NCBI GenBank assembly: GCA_026770585.1 | Contig: MU646373.1 | Span: 97,300 to 120,093, forward strand | DNA length: 22,794 bases | Source of the DNA: Baffinella frigidus | Lineage: Eukaryota; Cryptophyceae; Cryptomonadales; Baffinellaceae | Reading direction: 5' to 3' | Shown: positions 6,328 to 22,384 of the stretch, in pieces | Position numbering within the stretch: position 1 is the first letter of the stretch | Layout: every line of letters starts with the position of its first letter | Notes under the pieces: generated by a model | What the model was told of the DNA's origin: nothing | The model's database searches: none | What the model saw: only the letters and a program-made list of their open reading frames with translations | Program-made: the position numbers and the translations under genes

Positions 6328-6840
6328 GCTATTCCAAAACCTAAACCATAAACCCTCAACCCGTTACCCTCAACCCCAACCCCCAAACCCTAAACCCCAA
6401 ACCCCAAACCCCAAACCCTAAACCCTGATCCCAAAACCCGAAACCCGAAACCCGAAACCCGAAACTTTCAACACTGAACCCTAAACCCTGACCCTAAACA
6501 CAGAACCCCCTGATCCTAAACACAGAACCCCAAACCCCAAATCCTGAACCCTAACACCCAAACCCCAAACCCTTAACCCTAAACCCTGAGCCCTAAACCC
6601 GAAACCCTAAACCCTGAACCCCAAACACTGAACCCTACACCCTACTTGCTAAACCCTGATCCCCAATCTCTACTCCCTAATCCCGAATCTCTAATCCCTC
6701 ATCACTTATCCCTAAACCCTGAACCCTTGTCCTTGATCCCTAAACCCTAAACCCTAAACCCCACACCCAAAACCCTAAACCACAAATCCTCAACCCTACA
6801 CCCTCAACCCCAAACGCTCCCACCCATCCCCGCAACCCTG
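6328..6840 (+). repeat. Long degenerate telomere-like array
   Basis: About 500 nt of mixed CCCTAAA, CCCCAAA, CCCGAAA, CCCTGAA and CCCTCAA units, largest of the window. Variants are clustered (runs of CCCGAAA near 6436-6465), as expected from local tandem duplication. C-rich on the + strand. Non-coding. Confidence 0.95.
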
Positions 6841-13604: not shown

Positions 13605-13907
13605 TCAGGAAACGGTCGAGTAGACAGAGGGAACCAGCTCAGGGAGCCACGCCATGTCGATGACCGTGCAGTTTCGCATGTACATCTGCGCCACACGCAG
13701 CCTCTGGTGTTAGCAATCAATCAGGAATCCAAAGCGCGCACTTGGACCGTGTGCAGTGATAGTGAGGATCCGCACGGTAGGCTGCTCGCACCGCCACCAC
13801 GGTTGAAGCCTCCTGAAGCTAGTCCTTCAATCTCTGATAATCATTTGGCGGTGCACCGCCAGGTGGTGGATGTCTATCATTCATGGCGGTTGTGTTGGTA
13901 GTAGTAA

Positions 13908-13945
<38 letters not shown>

Positions 13946-13957
13946 TTCTCTCGCTCG

Positions 13958-14001
<44 letters not shown>

Positions 14002-14275
14002 GGAGGCGAGGAGAACCTTGATGGTGCGCATGAGGTTGAATCCCAAGAAACAATTTCGCCTGCAGCAATGCACCAAAAGATGGAGACCCCAAAACTCTAA
14101 ACCCCACACCCTGCACACATGAAACCCTGATCGGACCTTGGTGGTGAGCATAAGCTGATCAAAGACGACAGTTCGCGCCCGCCTCTGGAAGAGCGAAGAC
14201 GTCGGGTGGATGAACACCTCCTCTGACGAGCTCTCCACCTAAGAGTTGTAGGTTTGAGGGTTCAAGGTTGATGGT

Positions 14276-14307
<32 letters not shown>

Positions 14308-17300
14308 GGATGAGGGTTGAGGATGAAGGGGTAAGGGTTAAGGGTTAAGGGTTACACGGGTGTAGGTTCTAGAGTTTTTGGTTTGGCGGTAGCCCAAGGT
14401 CTAGGATTCCTGACGACGACGCCGACGTCAGGAATCCTTGATCTGTGCAGTGCACCACGACCGCACCGAGTCTAGAACGGGTGACAGCGCAAGGGTGCAG
14501 TGCAGCGCACGTTTCATCAAGGGTGCAGTACATCGCACGTTTCGCCACGTGCCATTCACGGCCACGCTGAGAGAGAGAGAGGAAACAATCTACGCGGGAT
14601 GTAGATTGCTGCAACCCCTCGAACCCCCCCCCCCCCATGACCTTGCAGCAGCGGCCATCGGGGGAGAGCACGGCCACGCTGAGAGAGAGAGGAAACAATC
14701 TACGCGGGATGCACATCGCTTCACCCCCCCCCGACACACACCACCACCAGGCCCCACTCGAGGCTGGACGATGGAGTATTTCAAATGTGGAATTGTTGAA
14801 TTTGGTACCAGGCACGGGCAGGCTTGGTCACGTTACTGGATGAATTCCCGCAGTAACGTGACCAAACGCCCCTAGTTGTGTGAAAATTACTGCACCCTCC
14901 TTTTTTTCTCTTCACTTGTAAAAGAATCCCAGTTTAAAAATGGTCACATTTCTAGCCTCGAGTGGCCTGACCTTGTAGCAGCGGCCATCGGGGGAGAGGC
15001 TGGCAGCGTTGGCGTAGAACGCCGTGACGAGGCACCGCGCAACCTGTTCGGAAAACACCCCTTTTCGTCAACTTATGACGTCGGGCCATAAAGTTAAGGC
15101 GTTGAGAGACGCGCTCAGATCGGGGCCAACGCGGGGCCAACTCTCAGGGGAATCGTGCCCAGATGTTTTGTGGATGGTGGGCATACAGGGGTACCTCGCT
15201 CATAAGAAACTGCCCCCCCCCCCCTAGGACCACCGTAGGGCCCTATGCATAGGCCTACTGTAGGGTCCTAGGGGGGCGTGGTTTCTTATGATCGAGGTAC
15301 CCCTGTACTGAAGCAAGGGGTTCTATGAGCCTGCTGGGTTGAGCGAATGGGCGACTACTGTTTCTCAGGAAGCAAGCACCAACGTTTTCACGAGGATTGT
15401 CGAGCGTAGCGTAGCTCACCCACCTCATAGGGGAACGACCCGGAATTAGGGTAGTTTAGCATACGGATCTCTTAGGACCAAGCCTACCGTGAGAGGTAGG
15501 TTTCCTAGGACCAGGTCCTAGGAGCCCCTCGGCCTACGGTGGGCAACCCATAGGCTAAACTACCCTAATTTTGGGTCGTTGAAGGACTAAACAAGAATCG
15601 ATACACACATCGATCCCCTTTTGGTACACATGCGAAATACCCAACCGATCAAAAAGTTTTCACGTGTGAGGGGTAATGGTGGTGTAGCGCATCGGAGGAT
15701 GATGGTTCGGCAAGAGGGGGCGGAGCGAGAGGATGATGCACCTGGGTGTGTTCCGAACCACACGAGACTAGCGCGACTTTCGCCTGCCGGGGGAGGGGAC
15801 CATCATCTGGTGTTAGCCAGCACTTATTGACTTGATTCGAAAGAGGAAAAACACGGCGCAGAATTGAGGCGAGCTTAGAAAAAATCTGGGAACTCTCCAG
15901 ACGAATTCCAAGGCAATACACTGCCACTACCAAGGATCACTCATCTCCAGGCTCGAGAGTGAGAAAAAAGGCAATACGTTAGCAAGCACACTCGCGCTGC
16001 GTGAGAACCGCACAAAGATAGCATTCGCCGCCAAGAAGAGGCGTCATGCAACTGGCGTTAATCGTTGTTTCACCTAGGGCGCCCTTTCAACGCAGAAAGA
16101 TGAGCCGGATGCGAGTGAGTGCAGATCTGCAGCAAGGACACCGCTCGCTGAGAGGGTGAGCGAGGGGCGTGTGTGACTCCTCGCTGAGCATTGTCACGCG
16201 TCGCAACTCAGTACGGGGCTGCTCTCTCTCGCGAACAAGGACACGCAGCGCCCCAGGGCCCTCACTCTCTCGTCCACGACATTTTCCCTGCGCAGTCTTC
16301 CACTCGGTGGGCTTTGAGGGTTTTGTTGACCCTTGATTCCGAGGTGTTACGTGACCAATTTGCATTAGAAGAATCGTTAAAGTCAACTATCTTCAGGTAA
16401 GTTGACTTTTGATGAAAGGTTCGTAGTCCACCGTGTGGTATCCGGGGATTCCTATTTTTCTTTCAGATTCGAGCAATGAAAATTACTACACAAATGCTTT
16501 GATATTAATTGTAAGAACGAATTGTGTATTATTTTGTGTTGCCGATTTTAAAGAAAACTAAGCAACTCATTACGGGGCTCACTGCCCCAGGGCCCTCACT
16601 CTCACTTCGTCCGCAGCACGTTCCCTGTGTGGGTATCTAGGCTCTAAGGGACGCACGTGGCTCGCAGCGTTCAGACCCAACGGGTTGAGACATGTTGGCA
16701 GAGGCGCTGAGATAATAACGTGTTGCCAGTGGCACTGAAATTATGACATGTTGGCAGAGGCGCTGAGATGATAACCTGTTGGCAGTGGCGCGCGAGCTGG
16801 GCGCGGATGTCAGCAGCCTTCTTCATGCTTCGAGCGTTCACAAAGTGCTGCGAACACCACCCCTTGTTCGTGGTCTTGCTCTCCACCCACGCGTTGTACA
16901 CCTGACGTCACCACTCACCTTACTCGCAAACATCTGGATTGGGCAAGGCTTTGTGGCCGGGGGGTGGGGGGGGGGCTTGCAAAAACTCTTCTCAAGCCGA
17001 AAGGTGGATGGAAGACGGAGAGATGGTGCTTGCTCTGCCTTTGTACAGGGAACGCTACACTTCTCCCTCAAGGGCACGCTACGCAACACTCCACTCTCAA
17101 TGTCTCTTCACTCACGCGTTGTACTGTACACCTGCCACCCAACCAGAAAGCATGCCACCAATCTCATCTCGGAAGATAACTGAGTCAGTTCCTTTTCGAT
17201 AGGAGGTTGATTAGGAGATATTAGTTAGGGCGCAGTAAATTCAATTAGGCCTCCTTATGAAATGAAAACGCCAATTAGGAAACTGATTCAGCCATCTTTC

Positions 17301-20300
17301 GAGATGAAATCATCTTGCACGACCACGAACAATGCCAGGTTCTTCTTCTTCTTCATCATCTTCTTCTTCTTCTTCTCAAGTCACCAATCCACTGCTAGCC
17401 AGAAGATTTTGTATTAGCCAACTTTGAAAACAATGGGAGAGAGGTGTAGTAAAATGGACGCCACCATGGCGTCCGGGATTCTTAAGGTGGACAGTTTCAA
17501 GGGGTGGTTGACTTTAGCCAAAAATCCTGGCTAGCAGTACAATCAGCCACCCATCAGCGTCCTTCCGAACGTGTGCCTCGGACAAGGGTTTGTGGCCACG
17601 GGGGGGGGGGGGAGCGCTCCTCTCAAGCCGACCGCCTGAGTCACGTGACTGGCTTCTGAAATGGGGAGGTACAGGTTTGATCACTCATCTCCAGGCGTGA
17701 GAGTCATCAAGAAGAAGAAGAAGCAGAAGAAGAAGAAGAAGAAGGAAAAGAAAAAAAAGAGAAAATGGAAAAAACAACAAGAAAAAACAACAAGAAAAAA
17801 AAGAGGGCAGGGCTGCGTCGGAGAGAGACCTGAAGGAAGGTGAGGTGGTCGCCGTCCGCGTGGAGAAGGTGAGCGTGTGCCTGCGTGCGTGGAATGGTGC
17901 AATATCTCAGAGCGTTGCAGAGAATGGGTTTCCCGCCGCATCCCAACGGGTTGATCACGGTGTTGTCCTCCACCGAGCGCCTCAACTTGCCGTATATGGC
18001 GATCGGTAACACGTCCCTATCCTCGGTGTACTCGGTCATGAGGTGGTCATGACCGAGTGCACCGAGGTGTCCGCGTGGAGAAGGTGCGCGCGCGCCTGCG
18101 TGCGTGCAAACGTGCAATATCTCGGAGCGGTGAAGAGAATAGTGGGATATTTTTCAGTGCATGTAAAAAGTGCAATATTTCAGAGCGGTGAAGAGAATAG
18201 GAGAATAGTGGGATATTTAGTGGGGTATTCCAGAGCCTAGTGGGATATAGAGGATAGTGGGATATTTCAGAGCGTTGAAAATAATAGTCCAGTATTTCAG
18301 ATCGTTGTGAAATATTTCAGACCGTTGTGAAATATTTCGGAGGGTTAAAGCGCGATGTGTGATGAAAGTAGTGGGCACAGATTGCTGGGAACTTCAAGAG
18401 TCTCTTCCACCCACCAACAGTGGGTGTAGCAACCTTGCGCAGCGTGTGAATCAGGGGTATTGATGCTGGGATAGTGACCAGACGCGTGATGCAATCACGT
18501 GGGAGAGGCACGCAATGGGCAATCCACCTTCTGGGCTTCGTCGCGTTTGCTGGACGGGTTCACGAAAATCGAGTCGACGGAGAGCATCGCCACTATTGTC
18601 AGCACCTGTCGTTTCGAATCGAGGACATTGTGAGCATCTGCACTTTCAAATCGAGGAGTGAGCCCCCTGCGATGCGGAGACACGCGAGGTGGCAGGTGCG
18701 TGTGTTCGCGAAACCAAGGCATGCATCACGTGCATGTGTTCGCGCAACGAAGGCATCGACCGACCACCGAAGACCGGGGAGGATTGCAGAAGGGGGGGGC
18801 GAGTCGTGACCTCGGTGGTGCAGTCAAAGGCCGGCGCCGAGAGGAGAAGTTTGGCGTACGAAGGTTCGAGCGGCAGAGACGCCATGCGCTGCCCTAGGTC
18901 CGTCACCTGCGCACCCGAGGTTTGCTGGGGTCAGAACCTATTGGGGTCGGTAACTCTGCGGAAGCAAGGTTATTGTGGTCAATAACCCATCACCCGCGCG
19001 CGCGCGGGTTATGGGGTTTAGGGCACCAAAGGGCGCGGATCGCTGTTCTGCTGCACATGACTCAAGGTTCGATTTACAGGAGTTTGGCTAAGGAAGGCTC
19101 GAGCGGCAGCGACGCCATGCGCTGTCCCAGGTCCGTAACCTGCGCAACCGAGGGTGTTGGGGTCAGTAATATGCGCGCGCGCACGTGTTGGGGATTATGG
19201 AAGCAACGGGCGCGTAGTCGCAGATCGCTGATCTGCTTCACATGACCCAGGGTTCAATCTACAGGACCTGGTGCCCCACCCTAACAAAATTCCTGGTGAG
19301 AGGTTCCGTTAATGCATGAAAACCGCGCGCCCTGAAGCGTGCAATTTGAAACCGAGCACCCTGAAAAATCAGCACACGTGATTTAAACGCACGATTCGAA
19401 GTGAAACGTGCGCGCGAGATTTGAAGTTGGGGTTGCGACCTTGTGGTTTCGGTCGATGGCCCCGAGGCAGAAGAGCTGCTCGAGGGCTTTCAGGAGAAGC
19501 TTCCTCGGAGGAGGTTCCATGAATTCAAACTCCACCAGATTGTCGATCCCCATGATCTTCAGCTGCAGAACCGTGCCTGCAAAACAGACACCCCTCCCGT
19601 TCAACACAAATAACTACCACCAGTGGAACCTAGTCGGGCACGGTGCAGCACCGTGCCTGCAAGACAGACCCCACTTCGGGTCACCGCACAGACGTGACTC
19701 ACACCCATCGGGCCTGGTCACTACATCTAGTGGCTAGGAGATCGAGAGGCCTGGTCACTGGCTCTAGGGGCAGCAAAAAATCCGAACACTGGAATAGTCA
19801 CTCTGGAGAGAAACGCAACGGGCTCATCATAAAGTCTCAAGTAGGCCCAGGGAAAGCTATACAGCACATCGACCAGAAAACCTGCAGATAACTTTTCGCG
19901 GGCACCAGCGTGCAGTCGAAGCGTGCATGGGGGGGACAGCGCGGAGATGGGTTTGGGGTTTGGGGTTTCAGGTGTAGGGTTTAGGATCTGGAGTTTGGGG
20001 TTTGGGGTTTAGGATTTGGGGTTTCGGGTTTCGGATTTCGGGTCCAGGGTCTAGGGCTTGGGGTGTATGGTTCAGGATTTCGGTTTTCGGGTTTGAGGTG
20101 TCGGGTTCAGGGTTCAGCGTTTAGGTTTTAGGGTTTCGGGTTTCGAGTTTGGGGTTTCGGGTTTGGGGTGTGGGGTTTAGGTGGGCGGGGTACCAGAGAG
20201 GCGGCAGCGCTTGATTTCCGGAACAGCAGATGCTTGCAGCTCCTCGAACGCCTCCTCTGTGAAGAGCCGGAAGCATTTGCCTGCGCCAACCACAATATCA

Positions 20301-22076
20301 GACTTGCGTTCCCCTCGGTGGCCTACGAGGGTTTCGTTGCCCCCGGATTCTGGGGTGTTACGTGACCAGTTTGCATTGGAAAAATGCTTAAGTTAATTGT
20401 GTTGAGGTAAGTTGAATTTTGATGAACGGTTCGTAGTTCACTGTGTGGATTAAGGAGTTCGCTGGGACTACTTAACAACCCAGACCTGTACCGTAGAGAT
20501 ATATATTGCCATGCCGCAAAAGAAAGCCCAGAAAAACGTCAACATATGACGGTGGTTGAAGCAGACGCTCACAATCGATCCGAGCAGCCCACAGAAAGCC
20601 GCCCACATAAATATCGATCTGAGCCGCCCACGGAAAACAACAACCAACACATTGACCAGCTGCCTACAAAGACAACATCCCACAAATCGCAGCTTCGCCG
20701 TGTCCCTGGGGCACACGCGTGTGGCTCATGGCGCAGGGCGCCGGGCTGGTTTCGTCCGGAAACGGTGATGAGCCCGCGGGCCTACCGTAGACACATACCG
20801 CACACCAGTCACCCTGTAATCGAGGAGAGTTCGGAAATCGAGGAGAGTATCGGAATAGCGTGTGGAGGACGTGCATTTGGACAAGAACCGGCGGCATAAC
20901 CAAGATGATTTGAGCGCCGAGCACGCAGTTTGATAAGAGTACACAGTTTGGGAAGAGCAAGGTTCAGGGAGGCAACAGCGCTGACGCGGCCGTCCTTGCT
21001 AAGCATGAAGTTAGGGGAAACGCAACGCGCAGCGAGCAGAGGGAGGGACCAGAGCTGACGCGGCTGAAGTGTGTACGGGTCTGCTAGCTGTTCCACGGCA
21101 CTGGTTTCGGGAGGGACCAGCGCTGATGCGGGCGTCCTTGCTAATCACGCAGGTTGGGAAACGCAATGGTCAGCCAAGTGGTTGAGGGAGGGAACAGCGC
21201 TGACGCGACCATCCTTGCGATCGCCAAAACAACTTGCGCGTTGAGCGCTATGTCCTTGCTGAGAATGCAGTTTGGGCAAACGCAATGCGCGACACGCAAT
21301 GGGTAGCGAGCAGAGTGGGTGACCAGCGCTGACGCGGAGGTGGGGGGTGGTTGAGGGAGGGAGGTGGTTGCGGGGGCGGACCAGCGCTGACGCGGCCGGC
21401 GCGTCCGGTGCGTTGCTGGGCCTGCGCCTTCGACACGGGCGTCTCCTGCTCGCAACCACACGTTGTGAGAGCTGCTCTTTCCGAGCGCGGCGCAATGCAC
21501 GCGGTTGAGAACGAGTCAGTTGTGAGGGCAGCTCTCGGCCACGTGAGTGGCGCAGGTTGGCGCGTCCGGTGCGCTGCTGGGCCTGCGCCTTCGAAACAGG
21601 CGTCTCCTGCTTGTAAGCACACGTTTTCACGTGAGTGGGTGACGCAGGTTTCGACCACGCAGACGCTTCCACGTCAGTTGCCCAGGTTTCGCGAAGCCAG
21701 CATTTCACAACCGCCCTGTGCCCAGCGTTGGCAAATGTCTCGCTCTGGCTCAGTTAGTCTGGTCTGCTCAAAATGAGGAGGCTGGAAGTTGATCTTCTGG
21801 TTATGTGGTACACATCCGTCAAGTATGTCCGGTAGTACAAAACGAAAATGGTTTGAGCCCTCACTATACAGAAACGCTCCAATGTCGCCCTGACCCTGAT
21901 ATACTTTTTATCAGCGGATACAGTTGATGGCATGTGAGGCGGGGGGGAGGGACCTGGAGGCACTCCATGTCGATGGTGGGCTGGTAGAACTTGGCCTTGA
22001 CGAGGCCGTTGTCGATGATGTATCGAATGCCGTCGATCGTGATCGATGATTCTGCGATGTTCGTCGCCAGCACCAC
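13605..22076 (-). CDS. DEAH-box RNA helicase (DHX33-like), C-terminal twelve exons
   Basis: Exons in transcript order: 22076-21954, 21445-21382, 20280-20194, 19576-19440, 18906-18811, 18605-18528, 17880-17830, 16901-16776, 15783-15742, 15043-14972, 14238-14137, 13685-13605 (TGA stop). Phases agree at all eleven joins; 352 aa. The 5' exons with motifs I-IV lie beyond the right edge. Seen: motif V ATNIAESSITI; motif VI QRTGRAGR; winged-helix/ratchet region (VLQLKIMGIDNL, ALEQLFCLGAID, LGQRMASLPLEP, AMLSVDSIF, DGDHLTFLQVYNAW, WCSQHFVNARSM); OB-fold end (EEVFIHPTSSLF, YMRNCTVID). Family knowledge: these NTP-driven 3'-5' RNA helicases act in splicing, ribosome biogenesis or translation. Similarity is strongest to DHX33 as I recall it (VDSIFVNPSSKRDEAQ region, end of OB-fold), but the subfamily is not certain. 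Every donor is G|GT and eleven of twelve exons start with G. Exon 9 is only 42 nt. Many exons have truncated copies in adjacent introns, listed separately. Confidence 0.9.
13911..13996. repeat. TC microsatellite
   Basis: (TC)n with CG interruptions, in helicase intron 11. Open frames rich in Ser/Leu or Arg/Glu here are artefacts. Confidence 0.95.
14093..14130 (+). repeat. Short telomere-like stretch
   Basis: CTCTAAACCCCACACCCTGC and neighbours, at the donor side of helicase intron 11. It is C-rich on +, so G-rich on the sense strand: the only intronic array here that breaks the orientation rule. Confidence 0.55.
14248..14358 (-). repeat. Telomere-like array, CCCTCAA type (sense strand)
   Basis: On + it reads GGGTTGA repeated, then GGGTTAA. 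On the helicase sense strand it is C-rich and ends about 10 nt before the exon 11 acceptor (14240-14239), in the place of a pyrimidine tract. Confidence 0.9.
14403..14438. repeat. Hairpin with 13-bp arms
   Basis: AGGATTCCTGACG (14403-14415) and CGTCAGGAATCCT (14426-14438), 10-nt GACG-rich loop, in helicase intron 10. Confidence 0.75.
14491..14543. repeat. Tandem duplication, 28-nt period
   Basis: AAGGGTGCAGTGCAGCGCAC and AAGGGTGCAGTACATCGCAC, each followed by GTTTC, in direct tandem in helicase intron 10. Confidence 0.75.
14557..14711. repeat. Direct repeat with 111-nt spacing in helicase intron 10
   Basis: CACGGCCACGCTGAGAGAGA through TCTACGCGGGATG occurs at 14557-14601 and again at about 14669-14711. 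Each is followed by a C-run. Between the copies lies the duplicated 3' end of helicase exon 10. Confidence 0.85.
14638..14668 (-). pseudogene. Copy of the 3' end and donor of helicase exon 10
   Basis: Matches 14968-14998 with one base change. On the minus strand it reads LSPDGRCCK followed by a GT, where the real exon has LSPDGRCYK. It lies 3' of the real exon in transcript order, so it is a spare donor, unlike the acceptor-side copies at other exons. Confidence 0.85.
14824..14865. repeat. Hairpin with 15-bp perfect arms
   Basis: TTGGTCACGTTACTG (14824-14838) and its complement (14851-14865), 12-nt loop, in helicase intron 10. Confidence 0.8.
15184..15307. mobile_element. Foldback element (MITE-like) in helicase intron 9
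   Basis: 27-nt terminal inverted repeats (15184-15210 and 15281-15307) with one mismatch, starting TACAGGGGTACCTCG. A core with CCTAGG, CGTAGGGCCCTATGCAT and TAGGGTCCTAGG resembles the elements at 13242 and 15434. TA at both ends may be the target duplication. Confidence 0.8.
15434..15580. mobile_element. Second foldback element in helicase intron 9
   Basis: 27-nt inverted repeats (15434-15460 and 15554-15580) with two mismatches, starting AACGACCC. The inner part holds GGACCA, CCTACCGTGAGAGGTAGG and CCTAGGACCAGGTCCTAGG. It lies 126 nt from the previous element; the termini differ but the core motifs are shared. Confidence 0.8.
16191..16640. repeat. Direct repeat pair in helicase intron 8
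   Basis: GCAACTCAGTACGGGGCT ... GCCCCAGGGCCCTCACTCTC at 16202-16271 recurs at 16562-16609 with deletions. Each copy is followed by CGTCC and a TTCCCTG motif. The 16300-16460 repeat lies between them. Confidence 0.7.
16300..16460. repeat. Dispersed repeat R2, copy 1
   Basis: About 150 nt (CTCGGTGGGC ... GGTGTTACGTGACCAATTTG ... GTAAGTTGACTTTTGATGAA ... GTTCGTAGTCCACCGTGTGG) matching 20311-20460 in the same orientation, 4 kb away, in another intron of the helicase gene. Confidence 0.85.
16686..16790 (-). repeat. Tandem repeats continuing from the exon 8 donor
   Basis: A GTTGGCAGNGGCNCTGAGAT-like unit of about 29 nt occurs four times. The last unit includes the end of helicase exon 8 and its donor (16776/16775), so the donor-proximal sequence is repeated into the intron. 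Confidence 0.8.
16930..17000. repeat. Repeat R3, copy 1
   Basis: GGGCAAGGCTTTGTGGCC, a G-run, then CTCTTCTCAAGCCGA. Matched by 17577-17631 (ACAAGGGTTTGTGGCC, G-run, CTCCTCTCAAGCCGA). Both lie in helicase intron 7. Confidence 0.75.
17104..17133 (-). pseudogene. Truncated upstream copy of helicase exon 8 start
   Basis: On the minus strand an AG is followed by GTGTACAGTACAACGCGTGAGTG; the real exon starts GTGTACAACGCGTGGGTGGAG (at 16901). A 5-nt AGTAC insertion (a duplication of GTAC-like sequence) shifts the frame and gives a stop seven codons in. Confidence 0.65.
17338..17377. repeat. TTC/TCT trinucleotide repeat
   Basis: (TTC)n with one ATCATC interruption, in helicase intron 7. Confidence 0.9.
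17577..17631. repeat. Repeat R3, copy 2
   Basis: Second copy of the G-run-containing segment at 16930-17000, about 640 nt away, same intron. Confidence 0.75.
17708..17805. repeat. AAG/A-rich tract
   Basis: (AAG)n grading into A-rich sequence; on the helicase sense strand it is a long TTC/T tract just after exon 7, in intron 7. Confidence 0.9.
18021..18067. repeat. Hairpin with 21-bp arms next to the exon 7 copy
   Basis: Arms CCTCGGTGTACTCGGTCATG+A (18021-18041) and 18047-18067 pair with one mismatch around GGTGG. The right arm stops 1 nt before the duplicated exon 7 segment at 18069, suggesting a linked origin such as template switching (inference). Confidence 0.85.
18069..18140 (-). pseudogene. 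Truncated upstream copy of helicase exon 7 start and acceptor
   Basis: On the minus strand 18095-18069 reads ARAHLLHAD against AHAHLLHAD at the start of real exon 7, preceded by an AG and about 45 nt of matching intron. After nine codons it diverges into the hairpin at 18021-18067. The real counterpart is 17853-17925. Confidence 0.9.
18130..18345. repeat. Degenerate tandem GGGATATTTCAGAGCGTTG repeat
   Basis: About eight loose units of GGGATATTTCAGAGCG / GAAATATTTCAGACCG, in helicase intron 6. They share the CAATATCTCAGAGCG motif that sits before exon 7 and its copy, so the array may have grown from there. Confidence 0.75.
19074..19139 (-). pseudogene. Truncated upstream copy of helicase exon 5
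   Basis: On the minus strand an AG is followed by 21 codons, VTDLGQRMASLPLEPSLAKL with a final L, then TAA. Real exon 5 (18906-18811) reads the same except Y for L at one place and continues for eleven more codons. The surrounding intron is duplicated too (18910-19080 against 19140-19265, including a CG-repeat and CACATGA-CAGGG/AAGG segment). The copy lies 5' of the real exon in transcript order. Confidence 0.95.
19645..19672 (-). pseudogene. Truncated upstream copy of helicase exon 4 acceptor
   Basis: Minus strand GTCTGTCTTGCAG|GCACGGTGCTGC, against GTCTGTTTTGCAG|GCACGGTTCTGC at real exon 4 (start 19576). Only the acceptor and the first dozen exon bases are copied, 80 nt away. Confidence 0.85.
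19949..20180 (-). repeat. Degenerate telomere-like array in helicase intron 3
   Basis: On + it is GGGTTTGG, GGGTTTC, GGGTTTA and similar; C-rich on the sense strand. It begins about 13 nt after the exon 3 donor. Confidence 0.9.
20311..20460. repeat. Dispersed repeat R2, copy 2
   Basis: Matches 16300-16460. It lies 30 nt upstream (sense) of the exon 3 acceptor. The match may extend weakly through the acceptor: the copy at 16285 also has a minus-strand GCGCAG followed by GGAAAATG, against GCGCAG|GCAAATGC here. Confidence 0.85.
20461..21381. other. Helicase intron 2, local repeats only
   Basis: No exon recognised. A loose repeat with words GGGAGGGACCAGCGCTGACGCG, CCTTGCT and GCAACG recurs about six times from 20965 to 21390, up to the exon 2 donor at 21381, which sits inside the same motif (ACCAGCGCTGACGCGG). 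Confidence 0.7.
21559..21606 (-). pseudogene. Truncated upstream copy of helicase exon 2
   Basis: On the minus strand AG is followed by 16 codons, ETPVSKAQAQQRTGRA, identical in protein to the start of real exon 2 (21445-21382), then diverges exactly within motif VI. The flanking intron bases CTCCTGCTNGNAA are also shared. The copy lies 5' of the real exon; using it would break the motif VI arginine finger segment. Confidence 0.95.
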
Positions 22077-22238
22077 CTGGATTGGGTGCCGTCAACGAAA
22101 GTCAACAAAAGTGTCTCAAGTTGAGCGCCCGGGATGGACACTTTCGATGATCAGACCACTTTCTAGCTCTGCCTGAGTTAATCTGGTCTCCTCATCTTGA
22201 GGAGACCAGAACTTGATACCCGTATTTTCCGGTACACA
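21738..22238. repeat. Direct repeats flanking helicase exon 1 of this window
   Basis: CTCTGGCTCAGTTAGTCTGGTCTGCTCA ... GGTACACATCCGTCAAG at 21741-21821 recurs at 22163-22236 with changes. The repeats bracket the exon at 21954-22076, with a hairpin (TCTCCTCATCTTGAGGAGA) inside the right copy. Confidence 0.8.
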
Positions 22239-22384
22239 TCCGTCAACGTTGGGTGTGAGCACGATGAGTCATTGCGAGTGAGGCAAAGGCAGACAGCGTC
22301 CGCGTGCTGCAGAAAGCATTCGGGAAATCACGAGTCGCTGCCTAGGACACGTCACCACTCGCACTCTCGCTGGGAGCCGGCCCC

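Follow-up and report, generated by a model that had tools for sequence, protein, structure and literature searches.

Exon-edge copies in the introns of a helicase gene and other genes of Baffinella frigidus: probable relics of local tandem duplications

The window considered here, a stretch of 22,794 nucleotides, is located in a 950-kb contig of the 382-Mb assembly of Baffinella frigidus, which belongs to a cryptophyte genus. On its minus strand, positions 13605..22076 carry the C-terminal part of a gene for a DHX33-like DEAH RNA helicase, for which an in-frame model of 12 exons extends to the stop codon. Exons 1–6 are located at 22076-21954, 21445-21382, 20280-20194, 19576-19440, 18906-18811, and 18605-18528, and exons 7–12 at 17880-17830, 16901-16776, 15783-15742, 15043-14972, 14238-14137, and 13685-13605; the start of exon 11 was set to 14238 after comparison with homologues. 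The same exons, except for the outer ends of exons 1 and 12, were obtained from an independent metagenomic homologue (P0002) with a purpose-written spliced aligner. The best protein match of the spliced helicase is P0001, which is annotated as a Baffinella frigidus protein and contains all 346 residues of the initial model. The closest long relative among the proteins compared is P0167, a Guillardia theta helicase of 678 residues that is listed with DHX33/DEAH10-type proteins. With P0167 as the reference, the gene continues upstream onto the neighbouring DNA, where it is interrupted by an N run. Because the alignment based on P0167 put the ends of exons 1 and 2 in the wrong place and inserted exons of low complexity, the 12-exon model supported by P0002 was retained; for the upstream half, the exon that the aligner placed first was excluded, as were three low-complexity exons close to the N run.

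Repeated sequences are found in and around this gene. A dispersed 140-nt repeat occurs in introns 2 and 8 (20309-20448 and 16298-16438; 82% identical), and an 85-nt repeat lies on both sides of exon 1 (21738-21822 and 22162-22246; 75% identical); by inspection, the start of P0001 seems to have been taken from the second of the latter two. A palindromic MITE-like repeat of about 166 nt at 15425-15591 has at least 39 further places in the assembly, with 86–92% identity, among the 40 candidates scored. Long telomere-like arrays can be recognized by eye, in introns and elsewhere, at 19921-20214, 2460-2720, and 6340-6840.

An earlier note on this DNA had described intronic copies of the acceptor and exon head upstream of exons 2, 4, 5, 7, and 8, and a copy of the tail and donor of exon 10. 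To each match we assigned its best score and compared it with the maximum from 100 dinucleotide shuffles of the same intron. All six copies, which lie on the minus strand like the gene, exceeded this maximum. The copy of the end of intron 1 and the first 48 nt of exon 2 is at 21559..21635 (exon part, 21606-21559; 104 against 24), that of the end of intron 4 and the first 62 nt of exon 5 at 19078..19266 (111 against 25; tandem unit of about 232 nt), and that of the end of intron 6 and the first 27 nt of exon 7 at 18069..18140 (89 against 30). The exon 8 head copy, at 17104..17124, is short, comprising 21 nt of the exon with an in-frame stop seen by inspection (32 against 23). The copy of the end of intron 3 and the head of exon 4, at 19644..19683 (45 against 25), contains just 13 nt of the exon; it depends on the acceptor and the exon jointly, since the exon alone scored 21 against a shuffle maximum of 22. 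Downstream of exon 10, its last 27 nt and 4 nt of the donor recur at 14638..14668 (57 against 22).

Tail copies that the note had missed were found at three further exons on the same strand. Five copies of the exon 2 tail and donor region run through intron 2 within 20967..21340 (21340-21315, 21211-21186, 21134-21109, 21066-21041, and 20992-20967; best 40 against 26). A 28-nt tandem array at 16689..16789 starts in the exon 8 tail and crosses the donor (75 against 31), and a weak copy of the exon 11 tail and donor lies at 14015..14034 (25 against 24). With the initial model, none of the acceptor windows of exons 1, 3, 6, 9, 10, 11, and 12 scored above the shuffle maximum. With the corrected start of exon 11, its acceptor reached 36 against 23, the match being an intron-only minisatellite (−40 to −12; exon alone, 16). 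The upstream half of the helicase gene has a single, weaker exon-head copy, located at contig position 124371, which by inspection carries three amino-acid changes. Two further matches there are intron-only, and none of the nine upstream exons has a copy at the threshold used for the pooled genes below. By eye, a similar copy of an acceptor and exon head seems to be present at 1087-1110 and 1128-1150 of the window, in a gene on the plus strand that looks nucleotide cyclase-like.

Further genes of the genome were then modelled: two DEAH helicases, TCP1, two partial CCT-like genes, six DEAD-box loci, and one HSP70 gene, the names of genes other than the query proteins being our own assignments by reading. 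With the exon alone as the query, copies were searched for within at most 1 kb of flank on each side at a score of at least 34, and the exons counted were hand-picked ones of at least 36 nt with a reliable match. The exons accepted from the aligner were 15 of 37 at C64, 17 of 18 at C94, 3 of 14 at C39, 5 of 10 at C6, and 18 of 19 at C62; the six DEAD-box loci provided 17 in all, one of which was shorter than 36 nt and was not counted. A helicase locus with few introns and a poor model (C253) and a CCT fragment (C1202) were excluded before counting, and the sample also leaves out six VCP places, the HSP70 places other than C62, and the window's own cyclase and SET genes. Two of these other HSP70 genes, at C709 (130009-131940 and 132789-134720), lie on opposite strands with equal scores and end-to-end single-piece matches; this inverted pair is apparently intronless, whereas at least 18 exons make up the HSP70-like gene at C62.

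Copies were found at 31 of the 109 exons (14 gene pieces from 13 loci), in a sample of conserved genes whose models rest partly on references at 30–80% identity and on hand-entered human proteins. A clear contrast is seen in orientation: 35 copies are direct (16 upstream and 19 downstream of their exons) and 2 are inverted. The first 75 exons gave 26 direct and 2 inverted copies, the 16 DEAD-box exons 8 direct copies more and no inverted one, and the 18 HSP70 exons 1 copy more. None of the 300 cross-gene controls run with the first 75 exons matched. The view that the copies exceed chance is thus upheld, and it extends to other sampled genes. The rate varies by gene, with 1 copy in the 18 HSP70 exons and 0 in the 9 exons of the upstream part of the helicase, and 4 of the 14 gene pieces have no copy at a score of 34 or more.

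Three features characterize the arrangement of these copies. One is that the upstream copies reproduce the exon head and the downstream copies the exon tail, with the near exon end reached within 9 nt in 33 of the 35; by inspection, the two exceptions, both in the C64 helicase, are probably due to an exon end modelled at the wrong position. Another is that the copies lie close to their exons, at spacings of 52 to 543 nt (median 207). The last is that an exon is copied nearly whole in only 1 of the 35, while units of the observed lengths placed at random would give a ratio of whole to partial copies of 0.67. This depletion is consistent with what selection against extra exons would leave.

We consider, with a probability of roughly 75%, that the copies are remnants of local tandem duplications that by chance ran across an exon edge. 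Such duplications occur throughout the introns of the sampled genes and presumably arise by unequal exchange or replication slippage. A duplication across one exon edge would be tolerated because a complete exon and a functional splice site persist, and one covering a whole exon would be purged because the mRNA would gain an exon; selection rather than mutation would then be what removes the whole-exon copies. Later MITE insertions and repeat expansions may separate the copy from its exon, and the copy would decay. The general idea of intron growth in the earlier note fits the copies. Its further view, that they go beyond what tandem duplication would give, is not supported, as tandem duplication with selection against whole-exon copies would yield the pattern apart from one anomaly in codon positions.

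Tandem duplication predicts that the stretch from exon to copy should resemble the stretch beyond the copy. Of 26 copies tested, 17 showed such intron homology where it was predicted (at most 4 of 200 shuffles). The other 9 of the 26 have no significant homology there, which counts against this account, as do the uneven rates among genes and the Illumina-only assembly, and inspection indicates that inserted elements explain only some of these 9. One such element is a MITE-like dispersed sequence of about 212 nt at 14754..14965 (no strand assigned), with terminal inverted repeats visible by eye. It begins a few bases inside the intron from the exon 10 donor and separates exon 10 from its copy, and it has at least 39 other near-full-length places at 88–93% identity among the 40 scored of 1828 candidates.

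The anomaly concerns how the copies differ from their exons. At codon positions 1, 2, and 3, the differences number 23/467, 28/472, and 92/470, respectively, and the ratio of third-position divergence to that at the first and second positions is 3.6 (2.5–5.5 by bootstrap over gene pieces). In 34 copies, 83 silent differences over 320 sites stand beside 59 amino-acid differences over 1009 sites, and these copies, obtained at the threshold of 34, have 5 gaps, and their 443 codons include no stop; at a threshold of 28, there are 2 stops in 476 codons. The periodicity persists at the non-CpG sites of the first 26 copies (7/246, 18/272, and 35/226), and the pattern is homogeneous among the copies (p = 0.24). 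We simulated a neutral copy beside an exon drifting at third positions only. With an exon drifting at the rate of the copy or more slowly, the ratio was 1.5–1.9; with one drifting three times faster, it was 3.9. A neutral copy of an exon under constraint would thus not be expected to diverge with so strong a codon periodicity, unless the third positions of the exon itself change about three times faster than the copy, and this speaks against the tandem account in its plain form. As the observed 3.6 exceeds the simulated 1.5–1.9, some of the differences probably date from a time when both sequences were coding. The silent changes in exons 2 and 5 had at first been considered as proof of function; a test on all the copies above the threshold showed that the codon pattern is general.

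The simplest account of the anomaly would be an exchange between alleles, and a bolder one would be that the copies have retained a coding use; we offer both as proposals. According to the former, unequal recombination brought the copy from another, diverged haplotype, and the differences partly predate the duplication, both sequences having been working exons. The ratio of 3.6 agrees with this, as do the absence of stops and the small number of gaps, and a table of the genome paper contains the wording 'haploid gene models' (PMC9756366). However, no second locus for the helicase or TCP1 was present among the best assembly candidates scored, the allelic divergence required (about 9% at third positions by our own arithmetic) is high, and several copies lack silent changes altogether. 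We regard an origin from diverged haplotypes as a real possibility that falls somewhat short of an even chance. It suggests an addition to the tandem-duplication account rather than a competitor. The combined proposition, that the copies diverged while both were working exon edges and are either fossils of lost alleles left by unequal exchange or still read somehow, appears rather unlikely to us.

A function in splicing was among the readings offered in the earlier note, which had suggested a layer of splice decoys or a source of alternative or poison exons. If the copies were decoys, poison exons, or alternative exons under selection, the codon-periodic divergence would be understandable, and the splice dinucleotide is indeed retained in 27 of the 32 copies whose near end is within 6 nt (13 of the 15 that lie upstream and 14 of the 17 that lie downstream). 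Yet this retention fits neutral copies at 5–10% change, and the spacing between copy and exon has no frame preference (12/12/10 modulo 3), so that neither lends support to such a layer. A special conservation of the dinucleotides was dropped as a candidate on the same ground, the adjacent intron bases being blurred by indels. The annotated protein P0001 does include the exon 7 copy as an extra exon of 14 codons (about 18095-18054). We give this little weight because P0001 also counts a low-complexity intron piece as coding. At one residue of the exon 7 copy, by inspection, the orthologues match the copy rather than the exon, but the other amino-acid changes inspected (the E5, E10, E11, and upstream x6 copies) depart from the orthologues. 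We therefore consider selected function improbable for the copies.

Another proposal in the note was that intron growth starts at splice junctions, so that duplication is targeted to them. The helicase gene alone gives some encouragement to this proposal: 4 of its 11 acceptors are covered by local repeats against 22% of the intron positions, and an earlier count in the window found an upstream match for 6 of 12 acceptor windows against 24% of the intron windows, although one of the six, that of exon 11, is the intron-only minisatellite. In six gene pieces, a point was scored as covered when a local direct repeat (within 1 kb) spanned it. The coverage was 17 of 79 for the acceptors, 17 of 79 for the donors, and 25.6% of 27,144 positions for the intron interior, and the stratified expectation at the intron rate is 22.7 acceptors and 22.6 donors (sd 3.9), so the junctions are slightly below the interior. 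Inverted repeats covered 2 of 79 acceptors, 0 of 79 donors, and 3.2% of the intron interior. Under a stricter rule applied to seven pieces, the values were 10 of 68 for the acceptors, 10 of 68 for the donors, 21.3% for introns, and 9.2% for the exon interior. The acceptor excess suggested by the window is thus lost in the pooled genes. Copies being in substance equally common at other intron positions in this sample of genes, which is the outcome that the note itself had named as contrary to its view, targeting of junctions has very little probability.

It is no more credible that the copies were produced by the assembler through the merging of haplotypes. The Baffinella genome paper reports an Illumina-only AllPathsLG assembly with 41% repeats (PMC9756366), and the divergence of the copies is allele-like. 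On the other hand, the window has no N run of 5 or more, and no second haplotype for the helicase or TCP1 was seen among the best candidates scored. The depletion of whole-exon copies (1 of 34 against about 14 expected from the ratio of 0.67) also speaks against an artefact, since an assembler would not arrange it.

The least credible origin, and a very remote one, is intron gain through introner insertion or through the tandem duplication of an AGGT segment within an exon: both can leave direct repeats near splice sites (PMC3443670; PMC9860276), but many copies include adjoining intron sequence, they lie beside their own exon although the AGGT model requires a position at the far splice site, and exon pieces were not found across genes (0 of 300), contrary to what introners would give.

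With the tandem-duplication reading retained, the copies can be placed among known systems. The AGGT model as described (PMC3443670) likewise has a tandem duplication interacting with splice sites; there, the duplication is exonic and a new intron arises between the copies, while here, the duplicated segment often takes in intron sequence and it is a pre-existing intron that becomes longer. Introners, as treated in PMC9860276, are a genome-wide source of intron sequence, and MITE-like elements are present in the introns here as well; they are dispersed and create introns, while the present copies are local and exon-specific. Short direct repeats near splice sites are treated in PMC11782384. 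The nearest likeness in layout is the potato RdRp gene, in which a tandem duplication across an intron–exon boundary gave a new intron in use (Ma, Lan and Niu 2016, PMC4974935). In both cases the duplicated segment crosses the boundary, as direct orientation (35 against 2 inverted) and the predicted intron homology (17 of 26) indicate here, and the annotated model of the exon 7 copy likewise consists of a short exon piece followed by a putative new intron. The potato example is a single case as described, while here many exons of one genome are concerned, with copies on either side whose splice sites are candidates for use.

In tandem duplicated and mutually exclusive exons, exon sequence is copied beside itself. 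The adjacency is shared, but the copies here are partial, with only 1 of 35 nearly a whole exon, and this class was rejected. A search by title and abstract of the open-access literature, with subscription journals mostly outside it, found no description of exon-edge copies in cryptophytes, and the word 'intron' is absent from the main text of the genome paper (PMC9756366). As far as such a search can tell, boundary-crossing tandem duplication is already known as a single case, and its many-gene scale within one genome is new.

These copies have several implications for the genome of Baffinella. Annotators should be wary of such copies, as the public model of the helicase takes one of them as an exon. 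If the copies are fossils of lost alleles, the introns would store pieces of lost haplotypes; if they are still read, they could serve, for instance, as alternative or repeat-mediated exon edges in a large share of the genes. With copies at 31 of 109 exons, the genome offers many events by which intron growth may be measured, and the same events may also reveal the frequency with which duplicated splice sites are tolerated or put to use, and the point at which one becomes a new intron.
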